32,779 nucleotides of DNA from a virus. Below, piece by piece: positions 784 to 1,116 of the stretch. The stretch is taken from IMG/VR virus record IMGVR_UViG_3300047557_001104, positions 1 to 32,779 of that record; one strand, 5' to 3'. The notes beneath the pieces are model-generated. The model was not told the origin of the DNA and did no database searches. It saw only the letters and a list, made by a program, of their open reading frames with translations. Each line of letters starts with the position of its first letter. The first letter of the stretch is position 1. A program made the translations under genes and the position numbers.

Positions 784-789
784 CAGGTT

Positions 790-885
790 GTCTGTGTGGT
801 GCAGATTGAGCCGTTAAGCATGTTCCCTGCCTTGCACTTACCCCGCAAGGATCACCACCAGGGGGCATCCTTAACGGCTTTTTTG
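790..885 (+). ncRNA. Long nested hairpin ending in a T-run: candidate small RNA or terminator
   Basis: Bases 809-818 pair perfectly with 870-879. After one C.C mismatch, 820-829 pairs with 859-868 (10 bp, two of them G.U). After an 8-nt bulge (851-858), 830-835 pairs with 845-850 around a 9-nt loop. That is 26 bp, followed directly by T at 879-884. The layout is that of a + strand intrinsic terminator with an unusually long stem, or a short self-terminating RNA. No + strand gene lies upstream, so a stand-alone RNA is the better reading. It is not a tRNA: there is no T-arm and no 7-bp acceptor layout. Confidence 0.55.
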
Positions 886-1116
886 TTTCTGACCAGACCG
901 TACTCCGCACGATAGTAGGCACTTACCATGGTGGCTCGGAGTTGAGGTGGTACGCCGTATGTCGCAAGACTAGGGGGCAGTTCCCGAAGAACCGGCGCGG
1001 CTGGTCGAATCTGCAAGCCGAGGGGTTGCGAGAGCAACATGCAGATGCTGCTTGACAGCGGAGGAACCTCCCCTCTCTACCCCGTTCTTGTTTGGGGTAG
1101 GGGGGTCTTTGGGAGG
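886..1116. other. Gene-free, GC-rich region full of nested inverted repeats
   Basis: No convincing gene is present. Pairings visible are: 891-896 with 1001-1006 (GACCAG/CTGGTC); 902-907 with 937-942 (ACTCCG/CGGAGT); 1009-1015 with 1040-1046 (ATCTGCA/TGCAGAT), enclosing 1025-1029 with 1034-1038 around a GAGA loop; 1047-1050 with 1056-1059; and 1067-1072 with 1111-1116 enclosing 1077-1083 with 1094-1100. The GAGA loop is a GNRA tetraloop only on the + strand, which favours a + strand RNA. The region could equally be structured untranslated RNA in the minus-strand operon transcript. Confidence 0.45.

Follow-up and report, generated by a model that had tools for sequence, protein, structure and literature searches.

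A probable small RNA gene of phages, conserved in fold and pseudoknot across unrelated gene settings

Introduction

The window analyzed here (32,779 bases, from a virus with genes for terminase, portal, capsid and baseplate, among others) carries on its plus strand a long hairpin that ends in a run of T. Is this a terminator of unusual length or the gene for a small RNA, and if the latter, how might the RNA act? A sequence-only reading had proposed a small RNA that might regulate the minus-strand operon as an antisense transcript. Comparison with relatives bore out the small RNA part of this reading and spoke against the antisense part.

Fold of the locus

The nested hairpin (helices of 10, 10 and 6 bp with one mismatch, one bulge and T6) is real. 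By fold and alignment, it forms a rod at 809-879 of the plus strand, consisting of helix A (809-818/870-879, 10 bp), helix B (820-829/859-868, 10 bp) and helix C (830-835/845-850, 6 bp). The mismatch (C819 x C869) separates helices A and B, and the bulge of 8 nt (851-858) lies in the 3' strand alone. The apical loop ACUUACCCC (836-844) recurs within the window's own group, not family-wide. The rod runs into a U-run (T6 at 879-884, followed by GTTT), typical of an intrinsic terminator, and there is no plus-strand gene directly upstream, as already noted from the sequence. Positions 788-886 have a folding energy of -44.5 kcal/mol versus -27.2 +/- 3.5 kcal/mol for dinucleotide shuffles (z -5.0), with none of 200 shuffles as stable.

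What the sequence-only reading overlooked is a short 5' hairpin, H1, and a complementarity between its loop and the bulge, which make the rod a part of a larger conserved RNA, hereafter RNA1. H1 was located by fold and alignment at 791-805 (plus strand), where UCUG (791-794) pairs with CAGA (802-805). Its loop GUGGUG (796-801) and the CACCAC of the bulge (853-858) are complementary and represent the two strands of a predicted pseudoknot. The predicted transcript spans 788-886 (plus strand), with a start predicted near 789-790 and an end in the U-run, both deduced from the comparison with relatives.

Relatives and covariation

In order to sample relatives, we gathered 106 viral loci via the terminase and the flanking 117-aa protein, and compared 24 distinct homologous regions. 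A rod with a U-run was found in nearly all homologous regions that were folded, and the letters of the rods often differed considerably. When IMG/VR was scanned with patterns for the short 5' hairpin, many further copies turned up, for a total of 81 distinct ones, mostly on metagenome contigs, so that independent events are fewer than the sequence count suggests. The copies fall into two main types according to the H1 stem, which is UCUG/CAGA in type I (the window's type) and UGUUG/CAACA in type II. Invariance of the H1 stem letters within each type is partly by design, as the search patterns fixed the stem and the loop ends. Loci fetched by the terminase or the 117-aa protein are free of this pattern bias and have the same loop-bulge pairing. 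Reverse-strand matches of a covariance model were rejected as palindrome artefacts.

In the relatives, the H1 loop and the bulge of the rod are reverse complements of each other. Some 20 loop words are in use among the 81 distinct relatives, and the bulge is nearly always the exact complement. The pairing is weaker for the loop GUGGCG, present in four type I copies, of which three pair strictly over five pairs only. When loop words were tried against the bulges of other copies within their type, only 6 of 1370 combinations paired as well as a loop with its own bulge.

Compensatory changes in relatives, which had been named beforehand as a check of the small RNA proposal, are present in the alignments of both types. 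For type I (36 sequences), 97.3% of the cells of the whole structure are paired, with 126 double-change cells versus 34 in shuffles, and the covariation score is 0.318, versus 0.149 for shuffles and no more than 0.091 with slid partners. At the variable positions of the pseudoknot, up to four kinds of Watson-Crick pairs were seen with zero failures (for example UA 13, AU 12, GC 6 and CG 5 times for the type I pair 13-74). For type II (38 sequences), all pseudoknot cells are paired (304/304, 100%), and double changes occur in four of the eight pairs. We dropped the idea that the pseudoknot diverges exceptionally fast, since it exceeds the per-site rate elsewhere only by a factor of about 1.4-1.5.

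Prospective searches gave compensated pairs as well. With a pattern that fixed only the H1 stem and the loop ends and left four loop letters free, 42 matches had a strong rod and a U-run, and the exact 8-nt complement was present in 40 of them; the other two are coding-like sequence. Among the remaining matches, the complement was found in 0 of 53. A type I loop pattern with four free letters had 0 matches. Natural twins tell the same story on a smaller scale. L006 and L020 differ solely in GUGAGAG/CUCUCAC versus GUGGAAG/CUUCCAC, so that two letters are swapped in the loop and two in the bulge to match, and in the pair L018 and L155 the loop and the bulge are also the sole differences.

When the region was compared by BLAST with phages and plasmids, the window's own sequence returned nothing, and its relatives led to two groundwater phages only. 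The matching words in these named phages (MW202484 and MW202426), reached by BLAST and by a covariance model without the pseudoknot, are new (GUAACGGU/ACCGUUAC and UAGCGU/ACGCUA). In a diverged copy found by model search (L216), the words also match (GUGGUG/CACCAC). Genome contigs were scanned twice, with the RNA pattern and with the terminase, and no host was found.

Pairing within or between molecules

Covariation alone fits pairing within one molecule and pairing between two identical molecules equally well, and a self-assembling RNA, with loop and bulge joining separate molecules into dimers or rings, has to be considered. There are precedents in phages. In the pRNA of phi29, the loop-loop complement varies among relatives. 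RNA1 is distinct from it, with a fold of hairpin plus rod and, among at least five gene settings, a single one beside a terminase (there, RNA1 follows the large subunit, as might suit an assembly role). Neither the pRNA fold nor a phi29-type packaging ATPase was found for the window phage, which has a terminase large subunit. In the cages of GOLLD and ROOL, too, kissing loops join the molecules. These two are structured RNAs encoded by phages, with conserved kissing loops and of unknown function (PMC12286853); unlike RNA1, which has no Rfam match, they are ~660 to more than 800 nt long and often located near tRNA islands.

The geometry of the rod points to pairing within the molecule. From the bulge word to the U-run, the distance is 17-21 nt in 80 of the 81 copies, even though the helices below the bulge are split differently among copies (10+10 or 11+8). 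Such a near-constant spacing of about 20 nt fits internal docking at a fixed height. Tandem copies in one locus, L166 (7776-7873 and 7930-8018), also argue against assembly, because they have different self-matching words. In both, the 5' loop matches the RNA's own apical loop and not a bulge (GUGGAAG/CUUCCAC and GUGAGAG/CUCUCAC). L166 looks like a Bacteroidota phage by its promoter, and its tandem RNAs are candidate homologues of RNA1. Altogether, we regard self-assembly as very improbable.

Promoter and terminator

The candidate promoter that had been pointed out at 754 is present, as TTAACG-N18-TACAAT (754-783), with a -35-like hexamer at 754-759 and a -10-like hexamer at 778-783 of the plus strand. 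In the window alone it proves nothing, since three promoter-like matches in 5 kb are fewer than the 7.4 expected in shuffles. It is the relatives, in which both hexamers are conserved, that make a sigma70-type promoter convincing. In 76 of the 81 copies, 5-6 nt separate the end of the -10 hexamer from the conserved 5' end, and a match of at least 8/12 to the two hexamers at fixed spacing is found in 83% of the 81 copies, but only in 3.5% of shuffled upstream sequences. In several copies, the -35 hexamer is TTGACA. At the other end, the U-run has a length of 5-8 nt in 80 of the 81 distinct copies, and of 4 nt in the remaining one.

The conserved positions of the -10 hexamer and the U-run led us to predict the transcript ends at H1 and at the U-run. 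Most likely, transcription begins at the 5' hairpin and stops past the rod, and RNA1 is probably a terminated RNA gene of ~97 nt. A strong terminator of the ordinary kind, long by chance, would also have the GC-rich stem and T6 of the window, but it needs neither a conserved upstream promoter nor a compensated loop-bulge pairing. We judge this explanation extremely improbable, and reject a plain terminator as the sole function on the grounds of the covariation. Together with the promoter conserved in relatives, the covariation strongly supports a small RNA.

Most members of the window's group share two conserved blocks, ACACTAGGAACATA and AATCTACCGTTCGTCGG, upstream of RNA1 at 692-737, beside a minus-strand TATAAT. 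They may serve the adjoining minus-strand genes as an operator or promoter region. L005, L029 and L083 have repeats of the TTTGCCA/TTTTTGCCG type between divergent promoters, in place of the window's GCGCCTTA repeats.

Gene settings

The gene neighborhoods of RNA1 are of at least five unrelated kinds, and in most of them RNA1 is in sense. In the window's group, it is opposite a minus-strand operon with a YqaJ-type exonuclease and ArdC. In the other four, it is in sense: between two small genes adjoining a Sak annealing protein, directly 3' of a terminase large subunit, 3' of a helicase and a primase-like gene, and 3' of a regulator (in MW202484). An antisense orientation is not conserved across these settings. 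Their variety favors an autonomous gene over an antisense RNA with a conserved role at a single operon.

Antisense regulation of the minus-strand operon is also poorly matched by the window itself. RNA1 sits between minus-strand genes, not on them, and its longest complementary stretch in the rest of the window (12 nt) was equalled or exceeded by 38 of 200 shuffles, as expected by chance. One local observation would suit an antisense or seed-pairing small RNA directed at the minus-operon mRNAs or, via the pyrimidine-rich apical loop, at ribosome binding sites: the apical loop UUACCCC of the window's group complements GGGGUAA, which immediately precedes a candidate minus-strand start codon (ATG, 650-652) of the neighboring small gene. 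Across the family, apical loops vary, as do orientation and neighbors, and with complementarity elsewhere in the window at chance level we consider such a role improbable.

An exchangeable neighbor

In most RNA1 copies, a second region of ~200-400 nt starts within ~15 nt after the U-run. In the window, this is RNA2 (887-1123), a second structured RNA, whose GNRA tetraloops, together with 18 compensated pairs in 16 relatives, place it on the plus strand. As its single-sequence folding energy is unexceptional (mean z -0.34 versus -0.40 for control stretches), the case for RNA2 is one of covariation only. In other phages, the slot holds other modules, which are combined freely with the RNA1 type; at least five types of structured RNA were seen. 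One of them is Betaproteobacteria-1 (RF02932), right behind the RNA1 copy of L036 (4687-4816, 82.1 bits), which gives this Rfam orphan a phage context. RNA1 was found without RNA2 in L166, L216 and L330, and protein genes start within ~30 nt of RNA1 in the latter two. In L330, a gene that by eye is HNH-endonuclease-like (500-994) begins ~30 nt after RNA1, in the usual place of RNA2.

A constant promoter plus RNA1 might control a slot in which many unrelated large structured RNAs replace one another. We put forward such a two-part RNA cassette tentatively; if true, it would be an all-RNA counterpart of the accessory-gene hot spots of phages, perhaps used against host defences.

Cis leader or autonomous RNA

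Phage leaders offer close parallels. Lambda 6S RNA, the pR'-tR' leader, is a short RNA that starts at a phage promoter and is terminated. RNA1 is similar to it and to other terminated leaders in being short and having a promoter and a terminator, but it has no constant downstream gene, and its fold is kept while its neighbors change. The put RNA of HK022 is a cis-acting antiterminator of ~70 nt (PMC9378689). Like putL and putR, RNA1 is a phage RNA of similar size with two adjacent stem-loops at or near the transcript start (as predicted for RNA1). Unlike them, it has a terminal U-run and a loop-bulge pseudoknot of 6-8 bp.

A cis leader role resembling that of HK022 put is the main rival to our preferred reading. 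The promoter and a conditional terminator would then meter transcription into RNA2 or the next sense gene, as in lambda pR'-tR' or HK022 put. The close spacing of RNA2 in most copies, with no recognizable promoter between RNA1 and RNA2, is in line with this, as is the position of RNA1 at the predicted transcription start, which it has in common with putL (PMC9378689). Less compatible are the three loci with RNA1 and no RNA2, the different downstream genes in every setting, and the direction of read-through in the window, which enters convergent genes. On balance, we find a cis leader unlikely, though still well ahead of the antisense role.

We favor, with some confidence, an autonomous structured RNA gene that acts in trans and is folded into a compact pseudoknot. 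Its fold, pseudoknot, promoter and terminator conservation, and mobility between settings were shown by sequence comparison. Host sigma70 RNA polymerase would initiate just before the 5' hairpin, and RNA1 would end at the U-run of its own rod. The H1 loop would dock on the 3' bulge through 6-8 Watson-Crick pairs and close the pseudoknot. The folded RNA would then most likely bind a host or phage macromolecule rather than act as antisense. We infer action in trans as a folded RNA because the shape and not the sequence is conserved, and because the gene moves between unrelated neighborhoods. Read-through of the terminator would probably yield RNA2 as well.

Relation to known RNA families

With Rfam 15, no family was found in the window at gathering scores. 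For positions 640-1140, a search at E-values up to 10 gave three matches, all far below the cut-off. Among the relatives, the only family detected was RF02932, which fills the RNA2 slot in L036. It differs from both RNA1 and the window's RNA2, neither of which matches an Rfam family. No description of RNA1 was found in the literature covered, which was incomplete, with most subscription papers outside, and RNA1 very probably represents a previously unnamed family of phage RNAs. To our knowledge, few phage RNA genes are conserved by fold, in unrelated phages, and independently of neighboring proteins. The well-defined predicted start, end and tertiary contact of RNA1 make its function directly testable, and RNA1 also leads to the adjoining set of exchangeable structured RNAs.

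Two "hypothetical proteins" in GenBank, UOF77725.1 and UOF76796.1, overlap RNA1/RNA2 (L230 2526-2885 and L231 2446-2574) and are probably not genes.
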